DNA of 55,632 nucleotides from Ramlibacter sp. (lineage in GTDB: Bacteria > Pseudomonadota > Gammaproteobacteria > Burkholderiales > Burkholderiaceae_C). Of the stretch, positions 392-22,552 are shown in pieces. Position 1 is the first letter of the stretch. Each line of letters begins with the position of its first letter. The notes under the pieces were generated by a model. The model searched no databases, had not been told where the DNA came from, and saw nothing but the letters and a program-made list of their open reading frames with translations. The DNA is taken from contig JAQGMS010000086.1 of the NCBI GenBank assembly GCA_028292245.1, positions 1-55,632 on the forward strand, written 5' to 3'. The translations under genes and the position numbers were made by a program.

Positions 392-601
392 ATGTCCTCC
401 GCACCTCCTACAAACGTCATCTCTGACGACGGGCTGCGCTATTCCCGGGGCAAGCCCCCTGGTGGCGCGATCCTCTCCTCAGCCCGCCCGGGTTTCATGA
501 GCTGCTTCAAGTGTGGCGGCTTCCGGCCGCTGGCCGAGCTTGCCTCGAAGCGCATTCTTGGCGCGAACCACAAGGTCTGCAAAGCGGGCTGCAAGCGCTG
601 A
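392..601 (+). CDS. Small cysteine-rich hypothetical protein (69 aa)
   Basis: Unknown function. The C-terminal half carries two cysteine pairs, C38-x2-C41 and C63-x3-C67, spaced like a small zinc ribbon, with basic residues around them (ends KAGCKR). The first 35 residues look unstructured. I chose the ATG at 392 because GGAG precedes it at 7 bases; the in-frame ATG at 497 would give a 34-aa protein holding only the Cys part and is a real alternative. It lies upstream of an RRM RNA-binding protein gene on the same strand, separated by 233 bases that show no gene. A nucleic-acid-binding role is possible but not shown. Confidence 0.45.
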   Translation: MSSAPPTNVISDDGLRYSRGKPPGGAILSSARPGFMSCFKCGGFRPLAELASKRILGANHKVCKAGCKR

Positions 602-834
602 CCGCGCTCCGCACCGAAGGCCGAGGGGCCGCTGCGCCGCTTCCATACGCGCGCAGTAACTCTAGCTTGATCGAGTTCCGCACCCTGTCAGCAGACGTCC
701 ATGCGGCGTCCCCTCGCGCTGATGGTCGGCTCGACGCAGATCCGGCCTTCCTCTCCCAGTTGCGTCCGACTCCCGGTCCTCCTGCCCGTCTCCCCGTTGC
801 GCACTATTGCGCGTCATCATCTAGAAAGGCTCCC

Positions 835-1185
835 ATGAGCACCAAAATCTATGTGGGCAACCTGCCCTACTCCGTGACCGACTCCACCATGGCGAGCAAC
901 TTTGCCGAATTCGGCAGCGTTTCTTCCGCCAAGGTCATGATGGACCGTGAAACCGGCCGCTCCAAAGGGTTTGGTTTTGTCGAAATGGCGTCCGCGGAAC
1001 ACGCCCAGGCTGCCATCAATGCGCTAGACGGCATGTCCGTGGATGGACGGTCCATTACCGTGAACCTGGCCCGCCCTCGTGAAGAAGGCCGTGGCCCGGG
1101 TGGGTACGGTTCAGACGGTTTCAAGGCAACCAAGCGAGCGGACGTAGGCTATGGCAATGGTGGCTACGGCGGTGGTCGCTATTAA
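835..1185 (+). CDS. RRM-domain RNA-binding protein (cold-shock type)
   Basis: A 116-aa single-RRM protein. RNP2 is IYVGNL (residues 5-10) and RNP1 is KGFGFVEM (44-51), both with the aromatic residues that stack on RNA bases. A short Arg/Gly/Tyr-rich tail follows (about 82-116, ending GGYGGGRY). This is the layout of the bacterial and cyanobacterial Rbp family of cytoplasmic RNA-binding proteins, often induced by cold. The start at 835 has GAAAGG 5 bases upstream. The 602-834 stretch before it has no gene and may be a long 5' leader, as is usual for cold-regulated mRNAs, but no element could be proved. No clear terminator follows. Confidence 0.9.
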   Translation: MSTKIYVGNLPYSVTDSTMASNFAEFGSVSSAKVMMDRETGRSKGFGFVEMASAEHAQAAINALDGMSVDGRSITVNLARPREEGRGPGGYGSDGFKATKRADVGYGNGGYGGGRY

Positions 1186-4397: not shown

Positions 4398-4575
4398 ATC
4401 CGACCGATTTACCGTCCGCCGGCGTTGTTGCCGCGGATCAATCCGCTTAGACATCACGCTTGTGCCACGAGATCGCTGGAGTTCCGGAGATCGGAGCGGC
4501 CTCCATTGCGTCAGTCCGAAATTTTCAAGGGCGGGTACACAGCACCAATCCTCGGGAGCGAACGACTGGCTCGCA

Positions 4576-4581
4576 TATAGT
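4576..4581 (+). promoter_or_regulatory. Candidate -10 box, possibly for leaderless transcript
   Basis: TATAGT lies 7 bases before the ATG at 4589, which has no Shine-Dalgarno sequence. If it is used, transcription would begin at or next to the start codon, giving a leaderless mRNA. No good -35 was found. Confidence 0.25.
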
Positions 4582-4588
4582 CTTGCTT

Positions 4589-5452
4589 ATGAGAAAACAG
4601 CTCCCCAAGGCGCTTGAGACTGAGGTCTTGTTGGCGAGCAGCAGACGGTGCTGCTTGTGCGTTTTCCTTGATGGCGTCGATGACGTGCGCAAAGGGCAGA
4701 TCGCGCATGTGAATCACGATCCTGGTGATGCGCGGTTCAAGAACTTGGTCTGGCTCTGTCTCGACCATCATGATGAATACGACGGGAGCACGAGCCAGTC
4801 CAAGGGATTGACCCAAGGCGAGATCACCGCATATAGGGATCGACTCTATGAATCCCGCCCGGCAGCATCGCGCCAGCAGCAGGGCGTTGGCGATCAAGCA
4901 GAGTCTGCTGAACTCAAACCGTTACCTCACCTGTCTATGTTCGACCATCTTCGCCGCGACTTTCCGCGTGAAACTGGGTTCACTGGCAACGCTTGGCGCT
5001 ATCCGCTCTGGCAAGTTGCTAACCAGCCTGATCTCTTCGCCTACAAGGCGTCCAACGGCGCAGATGGGATCTGCTTACTTGAGCGCGTTGATCTGCCTGA
5101 TGGCCGCATCGTAATTGCCTGCATTTCCATCGTCGGCAATCCCGGCCAAAGCATCACGAATGCGGTGGAAGAGATCTGCTTTCAGGTTTGCGAGCGATTC
5201 GAGATCCCACCGGAGCACTTGATCTGGCTCGAACACTATGAGAATCTGCCCGGATATGAAGAGTGGTCTTGGGTCACATTCGAGCAGCTTCCCCCCGCTT
5301 CCCTTTTCAGAAATCCAACGTGGCGGACAATGACGCCTGCCCTGTGGCGGCAATTGGGACTGAAGCCACGTGCCAAGCTCTTGCAGCAGGACGGCTACTA
5401 TGAGTCGATGCTGGACAAGGAGTTTCCTTGGCCCTGCGATTCCATTGTGTAG
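4589..5452 (+). CDS. HNH-type nuclease-like protein (287 aa)
   Basis: The N-terminal 90 residues resemble a zinc-supported HNH endonuclease: C21-x2-C24, then GQIAHVNHD with H40, then LVWLCLDHHDEYD (C57, H60, H61). The remaining about 180 residues form an acidic, aromatic-rich domain that I do not recognise (contains NLPGYEEWSWVTFEQLPP). HNH proteins of this shape often occur in defence or mobile-element regions. The ATG at 4589 was chosen because the protein-like sequence begins there; an earlier in-frame start at 4460 would add a non-conserved-looking stretch. It lies 320 bases before the NACHT-nuclease gene on the same strand. Whether the two act together is unknown. Base composition is visibly less G+C-rich than in the core genes to the right. 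Confidence 0.75.
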   Translation: MRKQLPKALETEVLLASSRRCCLCVFLDGVDDVRKGQIAHVNHDPGDARFKNLVWLCLDHHDEYDGSTSQSKGLTQGEITAYRDRLYESRPAASRQQQGVGDQAESAELKPLPHLSMFDHLRRDFPRETGFTGNAWRYPLWQVANQPDLFAYKASNGADGICLLERVDLPDGRIVIACISIVGNPGQSITNAVEEICFQVCERFEIPPEHLIWLEHYENLPGYEEWSWVTFEQLPPASLFRNPTWRTMTPALWRQLGLKPRAKLLQQDGYYESMLDKEFPWPCDSIV

Positions 5453-5772: not shown

Positions 5773-8700
5773 ATGTTTGGCGATTTCATTGACCTGCATC
5801 GGAACTTCTACGAACTGGCCTCCTCAGAGCCCTCGGCAGAGCGAATTGACGAGGGTCCGTTGGTCCGGAGCGGCCGCAACTTCAATTGGGATGACCTTCT
5901 TGCCGCCTACCGCGTCGTCATCCTGGCCGAGGCCGGCGCAGGCAAGACGGAAGAGATCCGGCAGGTAGCAAATCGTCTTCGCCGAGAAGGAAAGCCAGCG
6001 TTCTTCCTACGGCTTGAACACGTAGCTTCCAATGACTTGGACGTCGCCTTTGAGGTAGGCAACGCCCATGACTTCCGGTCGTGGCTCGATTCAAGCGTGC
6101 AGGGTTGGCTGCTTCTCGACTCAATCGACGAATCCAAGCTTCGTCACCCCAACGACTTCGCCTTGGCCATCCGGAAGATCGGCATCGCGCTAGGAGCAGC
6201 CAAGGAACGCTGTCACATCACGATCACCGGGCGAATGCCCGCATGGCGCCCGAGCTCAGACAGAAGCATTTGCGCATCGGCACTGCCGATACGGCCGCCT
6301 GAATCGACCTCAGCGTCCACCGAAGCCCGGAACAGCGATGGGTTCCTGGTCGTTGCCCTGCAGGACCTAACGCCCGCCCAAGTCAAAAATTACGTCATTG
6401 GCAAGGGGCTGCAGGATCACGACGAGTTCGTTCGAGCCCTCGAGCGACATGACGCATGGCCGCACGCAGCGCGACCTTTGGACTTGGATGAGCTCATGGA
6501 ATTCTGGAAGGAGACGGGTCGAATTGGATCAAGGCTTGAGCTCACCCATGGCAGCATCGACCGCCGACTGAAGGAACCGGATCCCAATCGCGGCGTCGTG
6601 AACCCCCTTGCCCCCGAGCGCGCTTGGGACGGAGCGATGCAAGCTGCTGCGGCATGCACGTTGACCGGACAGTCTGCCATCAAGATCCCAGATTCGGTTG
6701 GCGGCTTGGCTGGGTTGTCCTTGGAAGACCTTCTGCCGAGCTGGGACCACCGTGACTGCATGACCTTGCTCTCAAGGGCTATCTTCGACGAAGCCATCTA
6801 CGGCTGCGTCCGCATCGCGCACAGGTCTTTCAGGGAGTACCTGACCGCAAAATGGTTTGCAAAGCTCCTCTCGGAATCGACGTCGCGCAGGCCGATCGAC
6901 CAGCTGTTCTTTCGAGAGCAGTTCGGCGTGACCGTGGTGGTGCCCTCGCGACGTCCAATCCTTCCTTGGCTCGCCCTCCTCGATTCGAAGATTGCTGACC
7001 GGGTGATGCGAATCGCACCGGAGGTGCTCTTAGAGGGTGGGGACCCGCACGCGCTTCCTCTACCGGCGCGACAACAACTCCTTCAACAGTGCTGTGACCG
7101 GCTTGCCCGTGGCAACGTGACGCAGTCTTCCTTCGCGCTGGATGCGATCGAACGCTTTTCCGCGCCGGACATTGCCGATGACGTGGCGAGATTGATGCAT
7201 GAGCACGGCGACAAACCCGAAATCCTCATCTTTCTCCTTCGAATGGTCTCGCGGGGGCAGCTGGCGACCCTTCTACCCTTCGTTTTGCGTATTGCGTCCG
7301 ACGCTACCGGAGATCGCAGCGCACGGGTCACAGCAGTGCAGATTCTGGGCGAGCTCGGGAGCGAAGATGACAAACGGACGTTGCGCACGACGGTGCTCGC
7401 CGAGCCCGGACCCCATGACCGAGAACTGGTCAGCGAACTTCTGCAGGGGAATGCACCAACACAAGACGTCCTGGATTGGCTCATAGGCTGCCTGCCCGTG
7501 CTCGCCCCCGCAAGGCGTCACTCCATCGACTACCTGGAGCACGCCCTCCAGGACTTTGCCAAGCGCGCTCCGCTCGAATTGCTGCCGAACCTGGTGTCCG
7601 TGATCGACGACTTCTTGCGCCAGCCTCCATACGGAGAAATGGGTGCATCGCATGTCTCCATGGCTCATGCCTGGCTCGCTCGCGCTGCTGGAACGACGTT
7701 GGGGCGGCTCATTGAAGCCCAGCAGCCGAAAACTCTTTCTGATGATTCCCTAAACCTCCTGGACAGACTTGGAGGAATGTCACAAAGCTCCGACCACCTC
7801 GAAAAGTCTGACCTTTCGGAGCTCGTGTCTGGATGGAGGGAATTGAAGTTTCTCCTATTCTGGCGGATCGTCGGATACGCCCGCCAAAGCGCACTGGCGA
7901 AGGGCGAGCCGGCTCCGACCACTTGGTGGTCCCACTACATCTACGGGTCGTTCGTGAAGTTTTCAGCTGGCGACTTTCCTTATGCGCTGAAGCAACTCAC
8001 GACTCGCGAGTCCCAAGAAGACCGCCGCGTCGCACTTTCCTTGGCGTGCGATCTCTACGCCGAAGGGGGTAGAGACGCCAAAAATCGGAGGGCGTTGTGG
8101 AAGGCTCTCGGAACCGAGGCGGTGCTGCGCGCTGAACTGAAGGCATTCATGCACCCCCGCGTCACGCCCGCCCAGGCAAGGCTCCGGAGCATGAATCGAG
8201 ACCATGCCAAGCGCACAGAGGCGTACCAGACAAAGCAGAAGCGCAATCTCGAGAAGTGGCTTGAGTACCTTCAAAGCCACGTCGAGAGCTTGCGGAACTC
8301 GCCCCTCACCACCCGCGGCGACGTCAGCGGCCCACAGCACTATCTGTTCGAGCATGTTCGCTCGGCAAGCAAGGGCGGCAATCACTGGTCAACAGGCAAC
8401 TGGCAAGCGGCGGCGGATGCCTTTGGAGCGGAGGTCGCCTTGGCGTTTCGCGACGGAGCGGTTGCGTTCTGGCGAAACTTCCGGCCAATGCTCAGGTCGG
8501 AAGGGGCCGAGGACAACAGCACGCCTTTCAGCGTCATATTCGGCTTGTTCGGGTTGGCAATCGAAGCCGCTGAAAATCCGCATTGGGTGAGTAAGCTGAC
8601 GCAGGCCGAGGCCGAAATTTCCGTCAGGTACGGGATCCATGAGCTCAATGGTTTCCCGCCTTGGCTACCCTCGTTGTTCCGAAGATTTCCCGAGGTCGTA

Positions 8701-10038
8701 CTTGAACTCTTTGTGCAGGAGATCGCATTCGAACTGGACAACGAGGGCACCGCCGAACGGGAGCCCAGCTCCTACGTGCTCTACGACGTCAGCTGGAGCG
8801 GCGAGTGGATCCGTGACCGGATCGCTCCCGCCCTCTACACAGCGGTGCAATCGAGGGAGCCTCGACGTCAGGAGACCATCGAGCACATCCTGAAGATTCT
8901 TCAGGGATCTAACCGACCTGATGCAGAGTTGGCCGACTTGGCACGGGAGAAAGCCACCACCCTCACCGAGTGCAACCGCGTCGCGCAATGGGCCGCAGTC
9001 TGGTTTGGCGCAGATGGGGCAAATGCAATGGACTGGTTTCGGCGAGTGCTGAAGGAGATCGAGGCCAACAGCGCGCGCGACTTCATGATGAGTTTCATCG
9101 TGGGCTTGTTGGGTTCGCGGCACTCAGGGCCCGGGGCCCGCAAATCTTTCGCCACACCCGGGCTGCTGAAGGAGCTTTACCTTCTGGCCCACCGCTACCT
9201 GCCGGTTCCCGAGGACATTGATCGCGCCAATTCCGGCGTCTACTCTCCTGGGGTCAAAGACTACGCCCAGGAGGGTCGCGAGATGCTGTTGGAACTCCTT
9301 TTCGCCATCCCGGGGAAGGAAGCATTTGTTGCCTACAGCGAGATCGCAGAGTCTCACCCGTACATCGAGTGGCGTCCTTGGCTTCGGGTTCGGGCGCGAA
9401 AGAAGGCTGAAGCCGATGCAAACGATTCGGACTGGGCAGTCACAAATGTCCGCGAGTTCTTTCGTAATCTTCAGAGGAGCCCTTCTACGCCCAGGCACCT
9501 TTTCGACTTGGCCGTCGACCGAACATTGGCCTTCAAGGATGACATCGAAGACGGCGACAACAGCCCAGCCGCGGTGCTGCTCTTGGTAACTCAAGAAACC
9601 TTGACTCGGACTTCCATCGCACGCTGGCTCCGCGAATCCGCTGAGGGTAGGTATTCGTTGGCCCAAGAGGACGAATTGGCGGACGCCAAACGTCCTGACA
9701 TCCGCTGGCACGCGTCCAGCATCGACGCGCCCGTGCCTATGGAGTTAAAGCTCGCAGACAACTGGAGCGGCGCGGATCTCCTGGAGCGTCTCGAAAACCA
9801 GCTGTGCAGGGACTACGTCCGAGACTATCGCACACGCTTCGGAATCTTCTTGCTCGTTTGGCGTGGCCAAAAAAAGCAATGGGAGTTGCCAGATGATGCC
9901 GGCCGTGTGGATTTCGCAGGACTCGTTGCGGCACTCCAGGCGCGTTGGCACGAGATTTCTCCGCAGCGCCCAGAAATCGATGACGTTGCAGTCATCGGCA
10001 TCGACTTGACCAAGCGAGGTCAATCTGTTGCAGGCTAA
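5773..10038 (+). CDS. NACHT-like STAND NTPase with C-terminal PD-(D/E)xK nuclease motif (1421 aa)
   Basis: Large single protein, probably a phage-defence sensor-effector. Seen: a P-loop AEAGAGKT (52-59; Ala replaces the usual first Gly), Walker B WLLLDSIDE (112-120), a sensor-type Arg in TITGRMP (R153), and the NACHT winged-helix signature HRSFREYLTAKW (350-361). Residues about 400-1270 look all-helical; the first part resembles HEAT-like repeats. Near the end, D1309 (RPDIRW) is followed by E1324-L-K1326 (PMELKLAD) and ENQLCRDYVRDY, the D-ExK-Q/Y pattern of PD-(D/E)xK nucleases. STAND/NACHT defence proteins normally carry the effector at the N-terminus; here the NTPase starts the protein and the nuclease ends it. 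The next gene starts 19 bases after the stop. Start at 5773 has a weak ribosome site. Confidence 0.85.
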   Translation: MFGDFIDLHRNFYELASSEPSAERIDEGPLVRSGRNFNWDDLLAAYRVVILAEAGAGKTEEIRQVANRLRREGKPAFFLRLEHVASNDLDVAFEVGNAHDFRSWLDSSVQGWLLLDSIDESKLRHPNDFALAIRKIGIALGAAKERCHITITGRMPAWRPSSDRSICASALPIRPPESTSASTEARNSDGFLVVALQDLTPAQVKNYVIGKGLQDHDEFVRALERHDAWPHAARPLDLDELMEFWKETGRIGSRLELTHGSIDRRLKEPDPNRGVVNPLAPERAWDGAMQAAAACTLTGQSAIKIPDSVGGLAGLSLEDLLPSWDHRDCMTLLSRAIFDEAIYGCVRIAHRSFREYLTAKWFAKLLSESTSRRPIDQLFFREQFGVTVVVPSRRPILPWLALLDSKIADRVMRIAPEVLLEGGDPHALPLPARQQLLQQCCDRLARGNVTQSSFALDAIERFSAPDIADDVARLMHEHGDKPEILIFLLRMVSRGQLATLLPFVLRIASDATGDRSARVTAVQILGELGSEDDKRTLRTTVLAEPGPHDRELVSELLQGNAPTQDVLDWLIGCLPVLAPARRHSIDYLEHALQDFAKRAPLELLPNLVSVIDDFLRQPPYGEMGASHVSMAHAWLARAAGTTLGRLIEAQQPKTLSDDSLNLLDRLGGMSQSSDHLEKSDLSELVSGWRELKFLLFWRIVGYARQSALAKGEPAPTTWWSHYIYGSFVKFSAGDFPYALKQLTTRESQEDRRVALSLACDLYAEGGRDAKNRRALWKALGTEAVLRAELKAFMHPRVTPAQARLRSMNRDHAKRTEAYQTKQKRNLEKWLEYLQSHVESLRNSPLTTRGDVSGPQHYLFEHVRSASKGGNHWSTGNWQAAADAFGAEVALAFRDGAVAFWRNFRPMLRSEGAEDNSTPFSVIFGLFGLAIEAAENPHWVSKLTQAEAEISVRYGIHELNGFPPWLPSLFRRFPEVVLELFVQEIAFELDNEGTAEREPSSYVLYDVSWSGEWIRDRIAPALYTAVQSREPRRQETIEHILKILQGSNRPDAELADLAREKATTLTECNRVAQWAAVWFGADGANAMDWFRRVLKEIEANSARDFMMSFIVGLLGSRHSGPGARKSFATPGLLKELYLLAHRYLPVPEDIDRANSGVYSPGVKDYAQEGREMLLELLFAIPGKEAFVAYSEIAESHPYIEWRPWLRVRARKKAEADANDSDWAVTNVREFFRNLQRSPSTPRHLFDLAVDRTLAFKDDIEDGDNSPAAVLLLVTQETLTRTSIARWLRESAEGRYSLAQEDELADAKRPDIRWHASSIDAPVPMELKLADNWSGADLLERLENQLCRDYVRDYRTRFGIFLLVWRGQKKQWELPDDAGRVDFAGLVAALQARWHEISPQRPEIDDVAVIGIDLTKRGQSVAG

Positions 10039-10057
10039 GCCACTCGGCAAAATCTCC

Positions 10058-10669
10058 ATGGTTGACGCTATGACATCGACATCGCCGCAAACCGCTTTCG
10101 ATCCATGGACGGCTTCACTTCAAGAAGCCATCGCGCTGCAAGAGAGCTGGAAGGGGGAACGTGGAGGCCCGATCTTCCAGCAGGTCGCCGCACAGCAGGT
10201 GTTGGCTTTGCGTGAGCGCATCAAGGGAGGGGACGGTATCGCTGTCCTGTCGGCAGTGGCCAGCTGCGCGCTAGAGGCCCTGACTATGCCCGACTGGCTG
10301 GCGTGCGAGTATCTGCGTCGGTGGCGCCAAGTCACTGGCGCCCAAATCGCAACCTGGGACGAAGCCTTCGGCGCCTTCTGGCCGAAAGGCACGAAGGCAG
10401 CGCGATTGGCCACCATTAGACGGCATCGACTGGTTCAGGTGCGGCTGTTCAACAAGCTCACCAGCTTCGTCCAGATGAATCCCACAGAGCCCATCGACTG
10501 GGAAACGCTTGCTCACGAGGAAGGTGTCTCCAGGACCGTGGCGCAAGATCTCTATTACGAGTTTGCGCACCAACAGTCGATGACACCCTCCCAGATCCGG
10601 ACACGGAACGGCTGGCCGTCATCACCCGCCAAACTTCGAAAATTGGCGGGAAGACAACGGCGCGGGTAA
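10058..10669 (+). CDS. Hypothetical partner of the NACHT-nuclease (203 aa)
   Basis: Not recognised. Mostly helical, soluble. The C-terminal segment (about residues 135-175, IDWETLAHEEGVSRTVAQDL onward) looks like a helix-turn-helix or a small helical DNA-binding unit, and the tail is basic (ends GRQRRG). It begins 19 bases after the stop of the NACHT-nuclease gene; a TTG start at 10028 would overlap that gene by 11 bases and is an alternative. The close spacing argues for co-transcription and a shared role, for example as regulator, adaptor or DNA-binding subunit, but this is inference. Confidence 0.65.
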   Translation: MVDAMTSTSPQTAFDPWTASLQEAIALQESWKGERGGPIFQQVAAQQVLALRERIKGGDGIAVLSAVASCALEALTMPDWLACEYLRRWRQVTGAQIATWDEAFGAFWPKGTKAARLATIRRHRLVQVRLFNKLTSFVQMNPTEPIDWETLAHEEGVSRTVAQDLYYEFAHQQSMTPSQIRTRNGWPSSPAKLRKLAGRQRRG

Positions 10670-11339: not shown

Positions 11340-12053
11340 CTAGCCCACCTCTTCGGGCGTAACTAGCTCGGCGAGCTTGGCCGCGATATTCCTCATCGAA
11401 TCTTCTGCAGTGTTCAGGCCGCTTCGAGAGCCTAGCAAGGGGCTAACATCGCGTAGCGCTTCAAACGTCGTGCCGTGCACGATGGGGACGAGCAGGTCAC
11501 GCGCTAAGAGCGCCGAAAGCTCTTTCTCCGCGATGCCCTCTCCTTGCACACGGCGCAACAGCGCAGGCGTCACCAGCACGATCCCCACCTTGGACTTCGC
11601 TAGTCCCTTGTCGATTTCGCGAAGCAACGGCGACCCGAGGAGAACGTCCTTCTCACTGAACCAAACCGACACGCCGAGCGACTCAAGAAGATCATGTAGG
11701 TCCTTGGCGGCCCCATTCCGATCGTCCCACGCGTGGCACAGAAAGACGTCTCGGAGGTCAGGTTGCGCTACGCGCTTCTCAAAGCTTTCGCGCACCGGCG
11801 TAAGGGTCCGCACCTCGGCAGGCGTGTAAACCACAGACGAACCTGGCCGCGACCACCTGGGTTTCGTGCTGCCGCCGCCACTGCCGCTGCTGCTCCTAGC
11901 ACCTCCGCTGTTACCTCCGCCATAGGATGAAGAATAGGGCGAGGAATACGAATATGAGGACCGGTAGCCGCCATATCGGCTACCACACGCAGGACACTCT
12001 GCCGCCGCACTAGAAGTGCGATGGCCCCTCACAGGCGCCGTGCATCTAGCCAT
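11340..12053 (-). CDS. TIR-domain protein with N-terminal Cys motif
   Basis: 237 aa. Residues 102-210 form a TIR domain: DVFLCHAWDD, then VSVWFSEKDVLLGSPL, a GIVLVTPALL strand, and E178 in IAEKELSALL at the place of the catalytic Glu of NAD-cleaving TIR domains. The N-terminus has C4, then C20-x2-C23 in ECPACGSRYGG, a possible zinc site, followed by a flexible Ser/Tyr/Gly linker (about 26-62). Bacterial TIR proteins often act in anti-phage defence by consuming NAD; this one is small and has no sensor domain beyond the Cys motif. The ATG at 12053 has GTAGGAGGA just upstream. It lies beside the RNase H gene, same strand, but 209 bases apart. Confidence 0.85.
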   Translation of the reverse strand: MARCTAPVRGHRTSSAAAECPACGSRYGGYRSSYSYSSPYSSSYGGGNSGGARSSSGSGGGSTKPRWSRPGSSVVYTPAEVRTLTPVRESFEKRVAQPDLRDVFLCHAWDDRNGAAKDLHDLLESLGVSVWFSEKDVLLGSPLLREIDKGLAKSKVGIVLVTPALLRRVQGEGIAEKELSALLARDLLVPIVHGTTFEALRDVSPLLGSRSGLNTAEDSMRNIAAKLAELVTPEEVG

Positions 12054-12262: not shown

Positions 12263-13087
12263 TCAGTATCTGTAGTCGTCAGGATCGAGTTCTTCGAGCA
12301 CTTGATCAATGCCGGGGTGACCTCGATCAGAGTTCAGCCGCACCAGCAGGCACTTGTTACGGCTGAGCAAGTGCTTGTACCAGACGAAGTCGACGTCCTT
12401 ATAGGACGGGTCGTGCCGGTCAATCACCTCGAACCGATATTCATACTCTCTGATGTACTTGTTGTACTTGGTAGAGATGATCCGGATTTTTACTGCGCGG
12501 CCATCGAATGTGACGCAACCTCGCTGGGTCTTGCGATCTGACCACTTGCGAGTTGTCTGGCTAACTGACAGTGGCTTGTTGAACGGCATCGCTGCCGACC
12601 TCTTTGCGAGCTTATCGGCTGCTCGGTTATAGATGTTCGACTTGTGCGCCTTTACCCACCGCACTTCAACGCGAAGCGGGCACGCATTGACCTCCTTCTT
12701 TAGGCGCTTCCAGAGGTCAACGTTCGCGACGGGCATACCATTCGCGCCCCGCCACGCCCTCTGGGGCCACACGTTCATCGCCTTGACGAAGTTCTCAGTG
12801 ACGTATTGGGAGTCCGAGAACAGCACGATCTTCTTGAACCTGCTCAAGTCGGGAAAAACGCTCATGGCTTCCTGCAAACCGACGGTGCAGGCCTGGATTT
12901 CCATCTCGTCGATAGTCGCGCTCTGGTAGCCGGTCGGTGCGTGCTCGCTGGTCTGGGGGTCCCCAGCCTCGTCCACCCACATTAGCACTACACCCACACC
13001 AGCTGCTCGCTTTTTCCCGGGGAATGACGAGCCGTCCGTGTAAATGTTCAGGGCCTCCTCGTCATGGATTCCACCTTGAGTGATCAC
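12263..13087 (-). CDS. RNase H-family protein with C-terminal extension (274 aa)
   Basis: Residues 12-165 match RNase HI: IYTDGSS (D18), DEMEIQA (E63), LFSDSQYV (D92), KAHKS (H148) and NRAADKLA (D158), so all four metal-binding acids are present. It should cleave the RNA strand of RNA-DNA hybrids. Cellular RnhA has about 150 residues; this protein has about 110 more (Lys/Arg/Tyr-rich, ending DPDDYRY) that I cannot assign. The GTG start at 13087 is supported by GGAGGA directly upstream. It is not the housekeeping enzyme by context, because it lies in an accessory region next to TIR and NACHT genes. Confidence 0.85.
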   Translation of the reverse strand: MITQGGIHDEEALNIYTDGSSFPGKKRAAGVGVVLMWVDEAGDPQTSEHAPTGYQSATIDEMEIQACTVGLQEAMSVFPDLSRFKKIVLFSDSQYVTENFVKAMNVWPQRAWRGANGMPVANVDLWKRLKKEVNACPLRVEVRWVKAHKSNIYNRAADKLAKRSAAMPFNKPLSVSQTTRKWSDRKTQRGCVTFDGRAVKIRIISTKYNKYIREYEYRFEVIDRHDPSYKDVDFVWYKHLLSRNKCLLVRLNSDRGHPGIDQVLEELDPDDYRY

Positions 13088-13258: not shown

Positions 13259-14269
13259 ATGACAAAGAAGAAACTCCCGCCGAATGCGGTGGAGCACACC
13301 CACGTGGCCTGGGGATGGGAATTCCTTCGTCGCAATCCGGAGTACCGTCTTCGTTACGAAAGATGGCTGTTGCGCACGTGGCACGTCGTCCCATTGCCAT
13401 CCGGGGCCGCAAAGCTGCTACGCCAAATAGTCGAAAGAACGGGAAAGTGGCAGCCTCGGTTTGAGCCGTGGCTGGCTGCGGCAGTTGAAGCCGGATCGCC
13501 TTTCGGGGCAACCGCTTTCTTCCTGATGGTGGAGGGTAAATGGGTCGAAGTCGACGGAGCGCTGATGAGGAGCGACAGCGCGCTTTGCAAATTTGCCAGC
13601 CGCCCAGATACGCTTATTGCTATCCAGGCGGACCGGCTGCTCGATCCGATGGAGTTTGCACTAAATCGCTGGCTGGAGCCGGCGCTGGACAGCGACGCTT
13701 ATGGAGATGATGTCCTGCGGGAAGCGTTCGACGTTCACGCACTAACTTCGGAAATCGGAATCGACACCGGCTCGATGGAAGCTGATGCACTGCGAAGTTT
13801 GGGGATGCTAACGGTCGAGGATCTTGGAACCAAAATTGAATTCGCGCCACACCGAGAACGGGTGATCATCGCGAGTGACGGTGGAGCTGCAAGCCGCCCC
13901 CGGGTCACCCTTGAATTTGATCTGACAGCTCCGATCGATGCGCAGATTGGTGAAGCGAGGCGAAAGCTTAGCAACCGGCGAAGTCAGCTAGCAGAGAACC
14001 TCAAACCGCCCGTGCCCGAGCTGGTCGACGTGCACAAACCTGACCAAGCCAACATCTACAAGCGCTACCTCGCATTGCTCGATGTTGAAGAACACATTGG
14101 GGAAGTGCAAAGCGCCTCGGAGCTGTACAGAGCGCTGGTGAATCACGAGCGCCTAAGGGAATTTCCGTTGACGTGCCATTCTGTCGAAAAAAATCTGAAG
14201 CAAGCTCGATTCCTCCGAGACCACGGCTATCGGCAAGTGGCGTTCCTTCCTGAGCGCGCCGACCCGTGA
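13259..14269 (+). CDS. DUF6499/DUF2285-like protein of mobile elements (336 aa)
   Basis: The N-terminal segment WGWEFLRRNPEYRLRYERW (about 19-37) is the signature of DUF6499 proteins, which in proteobacterial integrative elements stand next to DUF2285 and AlpA-like regulators; some members (FseA-type) control excision. A segment EARRKLSNRRSQLAE (about 231-245) and a C-terminal helical region (KRYLALLDVEEHIGE) look like DNA-binding helices. It is followed at 14368 by an AlpA-type gene. Role inferred: regulator of a mobile element. No good ribosome site precedes the ATG. Confidence 0.65.
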   Translation: MTKKKLPPNAVEHTHVAWGWEFLRRNPEYRLRYERWLLRTWHVVPLPSGAAKLLRQIVERTGKWQPRFEPWLAAAVEAGSPFGATAFFLMVEGKWVEVDGALMRSDSALCKFASRPDTLIAIQADRLLDPMEFALNRWLEPALDSDAYGDDVLREAFDVHALTSEIGIDTGSMEADALRSLGMLTVEDLGTKIEFAPHRERVIIASDGGAASRPRVTLEFDLTAPIDAQIGEARRKLSNRRSQLAENLKPPVPELVDVHKPDQANIYKRYLALLDVEEHIGEVQSASELYRALVNHERLREFPLTCHSVEKNLKQARFLRDHGYRQVAFLPERADP

Positions 14270-14367: not shown

Positions 14368-14817
14368 ATGAACAGCAAGACGCCTCCTTCGAGAAACACG
14401 TCCCGCATCTCACAGCACGACGCCGCGCGTGAGGGTGCCCTCGGCGGCCGGCCCCCTGATGGCCCCCGTCGTCGCCCGCCGCTGACGTCGCAGCTGCCTT
14501 CAGACCAGCTGATCAATCTTCCGAAAATGTTGAATTTGACAAGCCTCGGACGATCCGACTACTACAACAGACGGACCCGAGGTGATGACGTGCCTCGTGC
14601 CATTTCAATTGGCGGGCGCTCGGTGAGGTTTCTTCTGTCAGAAGTCATTGGCTGGATCGAGCGGCGTGTAAGCGCGCGCGATATGAAGGTTGACGCGCAT
14701 GCCCTTGTACGGATTGAGGGTGAACTCACCCAGACTTCATGGTTGTCTGGTGAAGGTAGTAGGGCTTATGACGCGATCGGACACGGGTCGAGCGATATCG
14801 AGAATCGCCATGAATAG
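14368..14817 (+). CDS. AlpA-family excisionase/regulator
   Basis: 149 aa. The core (about residues 48-110) reads INLPKMLNLTSLGRSDYY then RAISIGGRSVRFLLSEVIGWIERR, the winged-helix AlpA/MerR-like fold of phage and island regulators (Phage_AlpA). The first 45 residues are Arg/Pro-rich and probably disordered; a shorter start is possible. AlpA proteins activate integrase genes or direct excision, but no integrase is visible here. Its stop overlaps the next ATG by 8 bases, so translation is probably coupled. Confidence 0.8.
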   Translation: MNSKTPPSRNTSRISQHDAAREGALGGRPPDGPRRRPPLTSQLPSDQLINLPKMLNLTSLGRSDYYNRRTRGDDVPRAISIGGRSVRFLLSEVIGWIERRVSARDMKVDAHALVRIEGELTQTSWLSGEGSRAYDAIGHGSSDIENRHE

Positions 14818-15691
14818 CGTTTCCCGCGGCTACGTTGTGCAAGCGGACCGGTCATGCGGGTCGGGCCGTCGGCCAGGTTTTGGCAATCGCCCTTTGCCCG
14901 TCAATTTCTTTGACGTCGCCAGATTCAACAGCGACACACTGACTCCTATGAGAGGCGCCGGCAGGCTCTTGGCGCTCTGCAGGAACATGGTCGTCCAACC
15001 CGTCCGCATCCCGTATCACCCGCGCTGGAAATGCGCGATAACCGTCTTTCAACCACGCGCGGAGTGGTTTCAAGGATGCCTCGAGTGCTTGCACCCCTTC
15101 GTGTCGGTTGAAGCCGCCGGTGCCGAAGTGGCGCGCGACTACGTCTGCGCATCCCCGGCACAGGCGGTACGCGTCGAAAGAATGCTGCTGCGCCATGCGT
15201 GGGTATTGCACAGTCAGCAGCGCGTCGAGCGGATCGGTTCAACTAGCTATTGGACGCGTGCGCACAAGTCGGGGTTGGTCGTGTATGCGGATCACATGCA
15301 CAAACATTCAGTGCCCGGACTGCCGCAGCCTTGCTGCCATACCGAAATTCGGTTGCGTGGCGTAAGAGACTTACGGGCCGCCGGGCTTTGGAAGCTCGGC
15401 GACTTCATCCAATTTGACTGGGACGCATTTTGGCGCGATCGAATCCGCTTCTACGCACTCCCTCATGAGAAGGGCGCGTTGGGTCGGCTTGCTGATTCGC
15501 GTTCAACGAACACTCGCACAGCTGCCACGTACCGAAATTGGGTAGACGAGGCTTCACTTCCTGGTGTCGGTTTTGTCCTGCAGAACTTTGCACTGGCACA
15601 CGGCGCGGTGAAGGGAAGGCTGGTCGAATTGAGCGCGGATCGGTGGCTAGACGCTGTTTGCAGATCGGATAAGCGAGTCTTGCGCTACTGA
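14810..15691 (+). CDS. Unknown protein coupled to AlpA gene, replication-initiator-like (293 aa)
   Basis: Not recognised with confidence. The segment TSYWTRAHKSGLVVYADH, then CCHTEIRLRGVRDLRAAGL (about 145-190), has the layout of a beta-strand with T-x-Y, a short-charged strand, and an E-x-R-L strand seen in Rep_trans-type replication initiators and in unnamed proteins beside AlpA genes. No catalytic Tyr can be proved. The ATG overlaps the stop of the AlpA gene by 8 bases; the next gene follows after 115 bases. It could be a replication protein of an integrative element. Confidence 0.6.
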   Translation: MNSVSRGYVVQADRSCGSGRRPGFGNRPLPVNFFDVARFNSDTLTPMRGAGRLLALCRNMVVQPVRIPYHPRWKCAITVFQPRAEWFQGCLECLHPFVSVEAAGAEVARDYVCASPAQAVRVERMLLRHAWVLHSQQRVERIGSTSYWTRAHKSGLVVYADHMHKHSVPGLPQPCCHTEIRLRGVRDLRAAGLWKLGDFIQFDWDAFWRDRIRFYALPHEKGALGRLADSRSTNTRTAATYRNWVDEASLPGVGFVLQNFALAHGAVKGRLVELSADRWLDAVCRSDKRVLRY

Positions 15692-15806: not shown

Positions 15807-18053
15807 ATGAACACGCCCAACATTCCTGGTCTTTCGCCGCATGACGATCCGTCCTCCGACATCGAGTTCAGAGCCACATTTGGCAGCGGTAAATCCGGCT
15901 TCATCGTGAAGCGTGCGCGGTGGCTGCAGGAAGGCGCTGGCGTGCGTCCCATCCCCATCAGCGTAGTGACGTTTTCCACGGTAGGCGCGAATGTCTTGAC
16001 CACGCGCTTAGTCGCGGCTGGTGTGACGGGCGTGAAAGCAATGACTGCCACGGAATTTTCGAGGACTGATCTCGTGACATCGAGGATCCTACTTATCGAC
16101 GACTTTCACTTGGCGACGGAATCGCAGGTGGTTCTCTTTGCCTCCATGAATCACCGGCTTGATGGCATTTGCTTGACCTGGAATCGTTGTGCGGGTGATC
16201 TCGGCCTGCAGCGCGTTCGACAGGTCTTTGGCGCCAGGTACGGCAAACGGCTTCTATTTCGATCGCTCACCTCGAATCGCGTCTCTCGCGAAACCGCCTC
16301 ATTGATTTCAAGCATGAAGCCGAGCAACGTCGCCGCACCGCTGGGCGGTCGCTCACGGAGCGTTCCTGAACTTGTCGTCTGCGTCTCGGAAGCCCACCGT
16401 TACCAGCAGATCGGCCAAAGGATCGCTTCACTTGCCGCGAACGGGGTGAAGCTGGCGCGCATAGCTGTGGTGACGCGTAGCACGGGTGAACGGGGAAAGC
16501 TAGGGGCTTGGCTGCGGAGAATTCAGCTTCCTGAGTCGCGCTTCAGCTTCTCAGAGCACGTATTGAATGTTCTGTGGTTGGCCGTCCAGTACGAGCGTGC
16601 GCTCACGGAGGCCACTTCCAGCGACCGGCCAACGTTACCAGATGCGCCCCCGCCAAGCATCCAAGGAATTGACTATCTACTCGCGCAGGTGCGCGGCATC
16701 CGCTGCGGCTGCCTTGAGAGTCTATTTGGTCAATGCGCCATTCTGTACGTGCGCCACGTCCGGGAGGGAATTTTTGGCGATCCGGTAGCGCGACGCCGGC
16801 TTCGGAATTATTTGGCGTCATGGGAGCCGTGGTTCCGGTACCAACGTTCGGCCCGCGCGGCGCATGCTCAACTGGCGTCGAGTTGCACTCATCCCGCACG
16901 GGGTCCAGATTTGCTCACCGCGAACATGACCTTCGGGCGGCAATGGGATTTCGTTCTGGTTGCAAACGCAGTCCGATCTGAATGGCCGCGCTTTGCTTCC
17001 CCGGACCCGGGCGCGTTGTACGCCGAGTGCGAGTTGCTTCAGCATGTGATTGCGCGTGCTCGGCGGCAAGTAGTTCTTTTCTTGTCCCCGGTAGGCGACG
17101 TTGTCTCGCGCGGAGTCTCCGAGCTATCTCCCTTCTTCCCAAGGCAAGACATTGCCCGGTACCTAGAAGTCACTTATCCCTCAACCTCAACCTCAACCTC
17201 AACCTCAACCTCAACCTCAACCTCGCCCTCACCCTCAAGGAGTCTCCTTGTGACCTACCCCAATGCCATCTCCGTTCGCGAACTTGCTCAAGGTCTGCGT
17301 GCAATGCTCAATATAAGGGAGCTTGAGCCAGCCGCCCGTAGGGCACTCACATTGCTGCGGCCGCTACACGAGTCGTTCTCGTTCTTTCGCTTGGACGAAG
17401 ATCAACAGTTCCAACTACAGCGCGGCTGGGCACGGCTAAAGTCAGTCCCTGGGAAAGCGAATAGGCTCCGTGGGCCGTCCATGGGTGAAGCCCCGATTCA
17501 AGCAACTTGGCTTGCTCTGCCGACAGCGGGCCCTATGAAACGGGTAGGGTCAATGGTCGAGCAATCTATCGCGAAGGGGATCGATGGGCGCAGCTTCGAG
17601 CACGTGCTAAGCGGGTTCGATTTTCTGCTTGGTCTGACCGACGAAGAAATCCAACAGCTTGAGAACGACGCCCCGGTCGCACTGCAAATTAAAACCTTGC
17701 GGAGCATTCCTGGCGATTGGGCTGAAGATGCGCCTTCGGAAAACTATGAGGCTCATTGCGCCCGCTTCCACACGATCGCGGTGCTGGAGATGGATTCGGT
17801 CCGCGGAATGCGTCTTCTGCCCGGGATGGGACCCTCTGCCTATCGGTGCATCCAGAATCTCACCGAGAATCACGTTATTTCCAGAGACGCTGACGATGTC
17901 CTCGTGGCTATTGATTCAGATGGCGACGCGCGTCGGTTCGTTGACGACGAGCCGGTAGACGAGACCGTGGCGGACGTGTTTCTCATGACTAGGCGGGGGG
18001 TGTGGATGCAATTCGGGCGCAAGGCTTCTTTCGAGGAGTGGATCGATCAGTAG
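15807..18053 (+). CDS. Degenerate SF1 (UvrD/Rep-like) helicase-like protein (748 aa)
   Basis: Walker A is ATFGSGKS (23-30) and the Walker B segment is RILLIDDFHLA (93-103); the Asp-Glu of UvrD is Asp-Asp here. Later segments ANMTFGRQWDFVLVANAVRS (motif V-like) and ECELLQHVIARARRQVVLFL (motif VI-like, with the finger Arg) fit the UvrD C-terminal core. The length and the weak middle motifs suggest a diverged family member that may bind ATP without normal unwinding. A run of Ser-Thr pairs lies at about residues 459-476, encoded by a hexanucleotide repeat. The C-terminal 200 residues are unassigned. No ribosome site precedes the ATG. An open stretch in the same frame continues after the TAG. Confidence 0.65.
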   Translation: MNTPNIPGLSPHDDPSSDIEFRATFGSGKSGFIVKRARWLQEGAGVRPIPISVVTFSTVGANVLTTRLVAAGVTGVKAMTATEFSRTDLVTSRILLIDDFHLATESQVVLFASMNHRLDGICLTWNRCAGDLGLQRVRQVFGARYGKRLLFRSLTSNRVSRETASLISSMKPSNVAAPLGGRSRSVPELVVCVSEAHRYQQIGQRIASLAANGVKLARIAVVTRSTGERGKLGAWLRRIQLPESRFSFSEHVLNVLWLAVQYERALTEATSSDRPTLPDAPPPSIQGIDYLLAQVRGIRCGCLESLFGQCAILYVRHVREGIFGDPVARRRLRNYLASWEPWFRYQRSARAAHAQLASSCTHPARGPDLLTANMTFGRQWDFVLVANAVRSEWPRFASPDPGALYAECELLQHVIARARRQVVLFLSPVGDVVSRGVSELSPFFPRQDIARYLEVTYPSTSTSTSTSTSTSTSPSPSRSLLVTYPNAISVRELAQGLRAMLNIRELEPAARRALTLLRPLHESFSFFRLDEDQQFQLQRGWARLKSVPGKANRLRGPSMGEAPIQATWLALPTAGPMKRVGSMVEQSIAKGIDGRSFEHVLSGFDFLLGLTDEEIQQLENDAPVALQIKTLRSIPGDWAEDAPSENYEAHCARFHTIAVLEMDSVRGMRLLPGMGPSAYRCIQNLTENHVISRDADDVLVAIDSDGDARRFVDDEPVDETVADVFLMTRRGVWMQFGRKASFEEWIDQ
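17180..17221. repeat. Seven CCTCAA hexanucleotide repeats inside coding sequence
   Basis: Seven exact tandem copies of CCTCAA, followed by decayed copies (CCTCGC, CCTCAC, CCTCAA) to about 17239. In the helicase-like gene each unit adds one Ser-Thr pair, so changes in number keep the frame. The repeat is a simple microsatellite, not a CRISPR. Confidence 0.9.
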
Positions 18054-22231: not shown

Positions 22232-22308
22232 TGGCGGAGTGGACGGGACTCGAACCCGCGACCCCCGGCGTGACAGGCCGGTATTCTAACCAACTGAACT
22301 ACCACTCC
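22232..22308 (-). tRNA. tRNA-Asp (GTC)
   Basis: 77 bases with encoded CCA. Acceptor GGAGTGG pairs with CCACTCC, the T-loop is GGTTCGAGT, and the anticodon loop CTGTCAC gives GTC. Last of three tRNA genes after gltX. Its 3' end faces the accessory region, a common integration site, but no integrase or repeated tRNA end was found in the window. Confidence 0.95.
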
Positions 22309-22378
22309 TGGTAGGCTGCTTTCGCCCTTGCGGGCCAAGTGCTGCCGGCTTGTTGCCGCATCATCGGGTGATGAATAT

Positions 22379-22454
22379 TGGCGACCCTACGGGGATTCGA
22401 ACCCCGGTACTTACCGTGAAAGGGTAATGTCCTAGGCCTCTAGACGATAGGGTC
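22379..22454 (-). tRNA. tRNA-Glu (TTC)
   Basis: 76 bases with encoded CCA. Acceptor GACCCTA pairs with TAGGGTC; anticodon loop CTTTCAC gives TTC. Lies between tRNA-Ala and tRNA-Asp in one transcript; it is also the substrate of the enzyme coded by gltX just upstream. Confidence 0.95.
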
Positions 22455-22476
22455 AAAACCTGCGAAATCTCTTCGA

Positions 22477-22552
<76 letters not shown>

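Follow-up and report, generated by a model that had tools for sequence, protein, structure and literature searches.

The stretch of DNA analysed here (the window) comprises 55,632 nucleotides of contig JAQGMS010000086.1 from Ramlibacter sp. (assembly GCA_028292245.1). It carries a hyoA-like gene whose 1421 amino acid product has a NACHT-type NTPase module at its N-terminus, a long helical solenoid, and a predicted nuclease domain at its C-terminus (Table 1). A sequence-only reading of this DNA had proposed a new candidate defence system, made up of this gene and the 203 amino acid open reading frame (ORF) that follows it closely. Its place in the HyoA equivalog of NCBIfam supports the defence role, but the system is not new: judged by its sequence, the product is a further member of the already catalogued HyoA antiphage family.

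Table 1. The hyoA-like gene, its domains (residue numbers of the protein) and other features of the window.
Feature	Position (nt)	Strand	Details
hyoA-like gene, 1421 amino acids, NACHT antiphage protein	5773..10038	+	ATG start; NCBIfam NF058534
NACHT core, ~residues 47-196	5911..6360	+	Walker A 52-59 with K58; Walker B D116, D119, E120
Winged-helix part of NACHT module, ~residues 338-389	6784..6939	+	H350-R351; short beta strands in model
Helical HEAT-like solenoid, ~residues 391-1190, presumed sensor	6943..9342	+	Model nearly all helical
PD-(D/E)xK nuclease-like domain, ~residues 1275-1421	9595..10035	+	E1299, D1309, E1324-x-K1326, Q1343, Y1348
203 amino acid ORF, adjacent, judged outside the system	10058..10669	+	ATG, 19 bases past hyoA stop
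Small RNA-recognition-motif protein	511-1185	+	NCBIfam RNA-binding regulator model, 110.5 against a cut-off of 100 bits
330 amino acid protein	4460-5452	+	HNH_3 E=0.034 (under cut-off); PADLOC SduA 3.5e-6, residues 194-276
TIR-domain protein, Gly/Ser-rich N-terminal stretch	11340-12053	-	PADLOC ThsB 2.1e-120
RNase H	12263-13087	opposite to hyoA	Library scans
Large ORFs	13259-14269, 14690-15691, 15807-18053	+	In lower-GC stretch
Three tRNA genes (Asp, Glu, Ala)	22232-22552	-	Cluster

In NCBIfam the protein matches NF058534.1, the model of the equivalog 'NACHT domain-containing antiphage protein HyoA', with 1503.4 bits against a curated cut-off of 1200, and residues 8-1415 align to positions 1-1430 of 1430, i.e. 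the full profile. The same model was matched at E values up to 1e-5 by 30 of 30 proteins (the window protein and 29 relatives). The window protein shows no defining difference from HyoA, and its downstream gene is not common to the relatives. Similarity to the EruA model NF058535.1 is distant (161.9 bits, residues 189-1373) and far under that model's cut-off of 1000. A Pfam scan gave no usable match, with AAA, HEAT and helicase hints under cut-off, and PADLOC 2.0.0 (2023), which we take to include the Avs1-Avs5 (AVAST) profiles, gave none at E up to 1. Recognition of this known family thus comes from a newer library, NCBIfam; Pfam and PADLOC 2.0.0 do not match it. A literature search, which covered few subscription papers and preprints, returned no HyoA paper and none on EruA as a NACHT protein, and neither Hyo nor Eru is among the entries in the available part of the DefensePredictor main text (PMC13092281). 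An unrelated regulator of E. coli is also called EruA.

Scanning genome contigs with a single protein as query found nothing; an alignment query gave 196 relatives, which by their record titles come from several phyla. One relative lies on a viral contig. The best 80 of the 196 were kept and share at most 45% identity with the window protein over the best segment, so the window gene is a diverged copy. Among near-relative genomes 5 of 99 have a HyoA match, with 2 over cut-off, and across the class 20 of 369 genomes do, with 6 over cut-off (genome G000 is in both counts each time). Matches were also found in 62 plasmid records, 41 with one place spanning at least 80% of the query, all below 60% identity, and weakly in 2 phage records. 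Of 5426 E. coli genomes, 3 carry a nearly identical version of the hyoA copy found on a Klebsiella plasmid. This patchy and partly plasmid-borne spread fits that of defence genes.

Conservation was counted over the window protein and 73 single-ORF relatives, i.e. 81 loci minus 8 without a single full-length ORF (L088, L092, L096, L098, L110, L127, L138, L145), and over a broader set of 21 (the window and 20 relatives, leaving out the split or truncated L044, L045 and L062). The sequence-only reading had placed the P-loop at residues 52-59, with A52 and K58, and the putative catalytic residues at D1309, E1324 and K1326, and these positions are right. The Walker A lysine and acidic Walker B residues of a NACHT/STAND NTPase are present. 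K58 is identical in 74/74 and 21/21 proteins, as are D116, D119 and E120, although the 74/74 for D116-D119 is biased, as those residues belong to the pattern used to fetch relatives; K58 and the nuclease residues were absent from the fetch patterns. That reading had also noted an alanine in place of the first P-loop glycine. It is there, but position 52 is serine in 38 and alanine in 36 of the 74 proteins, which makes A52 a family norm, and it was rejected as an unusual feature. The winged-helix signature that had been noticed stands: the motif HRSFREYL begins at residue 350, with H350 kept in 72/74 and R351 in 73/74.

The fold alignments drew on 51 relatives below 75% identity, of which alignment A2 held 49 (L107 and L126 dropped) and alignment A3 held 42 (L106, L107, L121, L129, L131, L133, L135, L136 and L139 dropped). 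Fold matches of residues 1-1190 are headed by NLRC4, NOD2 and NLRP3, in line with the N-terminal NACHT fold that had been proposed; in Foldseek's ranking for this region Avs4 came first (5e-8) and NLRC4 second (6.7e-7). An NLRC4-like NACHT fold with a winged helix is thus supported for the N-terminus of the model, and the HyoA-like protein is a bacterial relative of animal NLR immune sensors. Beyond the winged helix the model is almost wholly helical for ~800 residues, which upholds the helical repeat stretch of the sequence-only reading at slightly less than the ~850 residues claimed. Importin, CAND1 and RRP12 are among the fold matches of residues 1-1190, and profile searches against solved structures gave a synthetic fusion protein (2.5e-6, positions 496-600) and AlphaRep-7 (0.0012), with no NACHT and no nuclease match in these searches by sequence. 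The solenoid is presumed to be the sensor.

At the C-terminus, E1299, D1309, E1324, K1326, Q1343 and Y1348 are identical in 21/21 proteins of the broader set and are each kept in 73/74, the sole exception each time being L107, whose C-terminus could not be aligned. Only 96 of the 1421 columns are conserved at 73/74 or better, so the conservation of these residues is well above the alignment background, and the D-ExK-Q/Y motif that had been proposed is borne out. The fold matches listed for residues 1190-1421 are mostly enzymes that we take to belong to the PD-(D/E)xK family, which agrees with the restriction-endonuclease-like fold expected there. The match of the modelled core fold is moderate. 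Foldseek alone did not identify a nuclease in this domain; VIA-align 2 is a re-examination of Foldseek's own candidates and covers only the folds on those lists. Model and residues together support a restriction-endonuclease-like domain with a conserved catalytic set (D1309 with E1324-x-K1326), for which DNA cutting is predicted.

The order of these parts is the reverse of that described for the class. According to PMC12169576, the effector of STAND proteins is N-terminal and their sensor C-terminal, and one of them, bNACHT25, has an N-terminal PD-(D/E)xK DNase that is required for defence. This order, which is typical and not defining, is not that of the HyoA-like protein, as the sequence-only reading had pointed out, and no N-terminal effector domain was recognised in it by the Pfam scan or from the lengths ahead of the P-loop. 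Counted from the preceding stop, 56-90 residues lie ahead of K58 in 62/74 proteins, which in most HyoA proteins leaves no room for a nuclease-size effector. A further 11 have 91-242 residues, which in each case an available in-frame ATG would shorten to 56-87; the remaining one has 29. The 1656 amino acid ORF of L037 was considered as an N-terminal fusion and rejected, as its upstream part looks, by eye, like open frame before an ordinary start. An EruA-like protein in genome G066, which at 980.5 bits falls just short of the EruA cut-off, also has its P-loop close to the start, with RADIR...PIEIKK...RQL close to the end. By sequence, the HyoA group thus shares this P-loop-first, D..ExK..Q-last order with at least one EruA-like protein.

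Better known systems resemble the HyoA-like protein in part. Avs4 is the first Foldseek match of residues 1-1190, yet no PADLOC model matches the protein; the stretch compared is N-terminal in Avs4, whereas the domain is C-terminal here. NLRC4 has a similar NACHT module and carries CARD and LRR, while the HyoA-like protein has a HEAT-like solenoid and a nuclease-like domain. The clade 6 proteins bNACHT25 and bNACHT32 likewise pair a NACHT NTPase with a PD-(D/E)xK nuclease, but according to PMC12169576 their nuclease is N-terminal; they were set beside HyoA by description, not by sequence. We see about an even chance that HyoA and EruA belong together in a superfamily of 'reverse-polarity' NLR-like receptors that is widespread and has the nuclease effector past the sensor solenoid. 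If so, activation must travel through or around the solenoid, and the N-effector/NACHT/C-sensor order is no rule of prokaryotic NACHT immunity. Since HyoA is already catalogued as an antiphage family, this copy in itself has little discovery value; it adds the reversed order and a nearly invariant nuclease site, which allow the tripartite rule for bacterial NACHT proteins to be tested directly, using paired changes of K58 and E1324.

The favoured reading, which we consider quite probable, is a HyoA antiphage receptor that belongs to the NACHT/STAND class and consists of a single gene. From the domain anatomy, its most likely mode of action is phage-triggered, ATP-dependent oligomerisation of the NACHT modules, with the solenoid as sensor and the clustered C-terminal nucleases cutting DNA. 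At rest the NACHT module would hold ADP and the protein would be closed. Detection by the solenoid of a phage product, or of a host change caused by the phage, would lead to exchange of ADP for ATP and oligomerisation of the NACHT modules, and the oligomer would gather the C-terminal nuclease domains. These would then cut phage DNA, host DNA or both and halt the infection, with the phage DNA degraded or the cell killed or arrested. An unlikely alternative is a restriction-like or modification-dependent nuclease, in which the C-terminal domain recognises phage DNA and is driven by the NTPase as in McrBC, with no protein sensing. The C-terminal domain does have McrBC (McrC), FokI and AspBHI entries in its list of fold matches, but the NTPase here is an NLR-type NACHT module, which acts as an oligomerisation switch and not as a translocase, and HEAT-like solenoids are typical protein-binding modules. 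That the C-terminal domain is a non-cutting DNA-binding sensor, with killing by another activity, would suit the usual C-terminal place of sensors and the moderate fold match, but is very improbable given that E1299, D1309, E1324, K1326 and Q1343 are kept in 73/74, which is unexpected without catalysis, and that no other effector domain was recognised.

The single-gene receptor reading also bears on the 203 amino acid ORF, which does begin 19 bases past the hyoA stop as had been stated. It could be an obligate partner of the NACHT protein (an inhibitor, co-sensor or adaptor), as its same-strand position, short gap and similar GC content at third codon positions (0.696 and 0.685) might suggest, and a rare, lineage-specific partner could be missed when its relatives are as distant as these (24-35% identity). 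We nevertheless reject it as a partner and regard a two-gene system as highly improbable. No relative of it turned up among the ORFs of the 81 HyoA loci, some of which have short flanks (best E 0.82, L089). The remaining HyoA loci that were searched had none either (best E 0.47, L043), and nor had the plasmid records, although 41 of these hold a HyoA relative along 80% or more of its length. Downstream sequence reaches at least 1 kb in 66 of the 73 single-ORF loci and less in 7. Genomes with a match to the 203 amino acid ORF number 6 of 99 (E up to 0.01) and 5 of 369 (E up to 0.001), G000 included, and in both genome sets only G000 has the two genes together.

A phage-type tyrosine integrase lies within ~2.6 kb of 5 of the 7 partner relatives examined (L147, L148, L149, L152, L153). 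The other two, L150 and L151, span only ~3.3 kb each and hold no ORF of integrase size; the weak matches L054 and L055 are outside this count. The 203 amino acid protein has no usable Pfam or PADLOC 2.0.0 match, and in NCBIfam only one at E 0.084, far under cut-off. Its relatives near integrases suggest a small mobile-element gene family beyond the scanned libraries. The best reading is a mobile-element gene that follows hyoA here by chance; a rare lineage-specific role is less probable.

A same-strand downstream ORF of at least 120 amino acids within 60 nt is present in 5/67 HyoA loci, and the most shared neighbour family reaches only 5/72 in a clustering that used stop-to-stop frames, some of them spurious. 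These counts, which also weigh against a two-gene system, show hyoA to be without a constant neighbour gene, and one gene should therefore suffice in an assay. In the Rhizobiales relatives L066, L116 and L117 a 313 amino acid ORF starts 3 nt past hyoA, with a DUF3800 match in L066; three neighbour ORFs in all have DUF3800 matches, and this ORF is possibly a sublineage add-on. Among ten annotated plasmid or phage neighbourhoods, 4 have a SIR2, TIR or type III restriction-modification gene within 7 kb and 6 do not. In a PADLOC scan of 122 nearest-neighbour ORFs, the 25 families listed include Gabija genes, each with one occurrence.

In the window itself, the hyoA-like gene had been placed among HNH, TIR and RNase H genes. 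The TIR and RNase H genes hold up, while the HNH assignment of the 330 amino acid protein is weak (Table 1); going by its sequence matches, it is possibly another defence nuclease. No ThsA match accompanies the ThsB-like TIR protein in the ten nearby proteins scanned with PADLOC, a subset of the ORFs. The three large ORFs further on belong to no clear Pfam, NCBIfam or PADLOC family, with only weak transcriptional-regulator-like and weak GajB matches. GC content is 0.603 in the first 22 kb and 0.659 beyond the tRNA cluster, which is a possible island boundary, and the first 22 kb are consistent with lateral acquisition of DNA that includes some defence genes.
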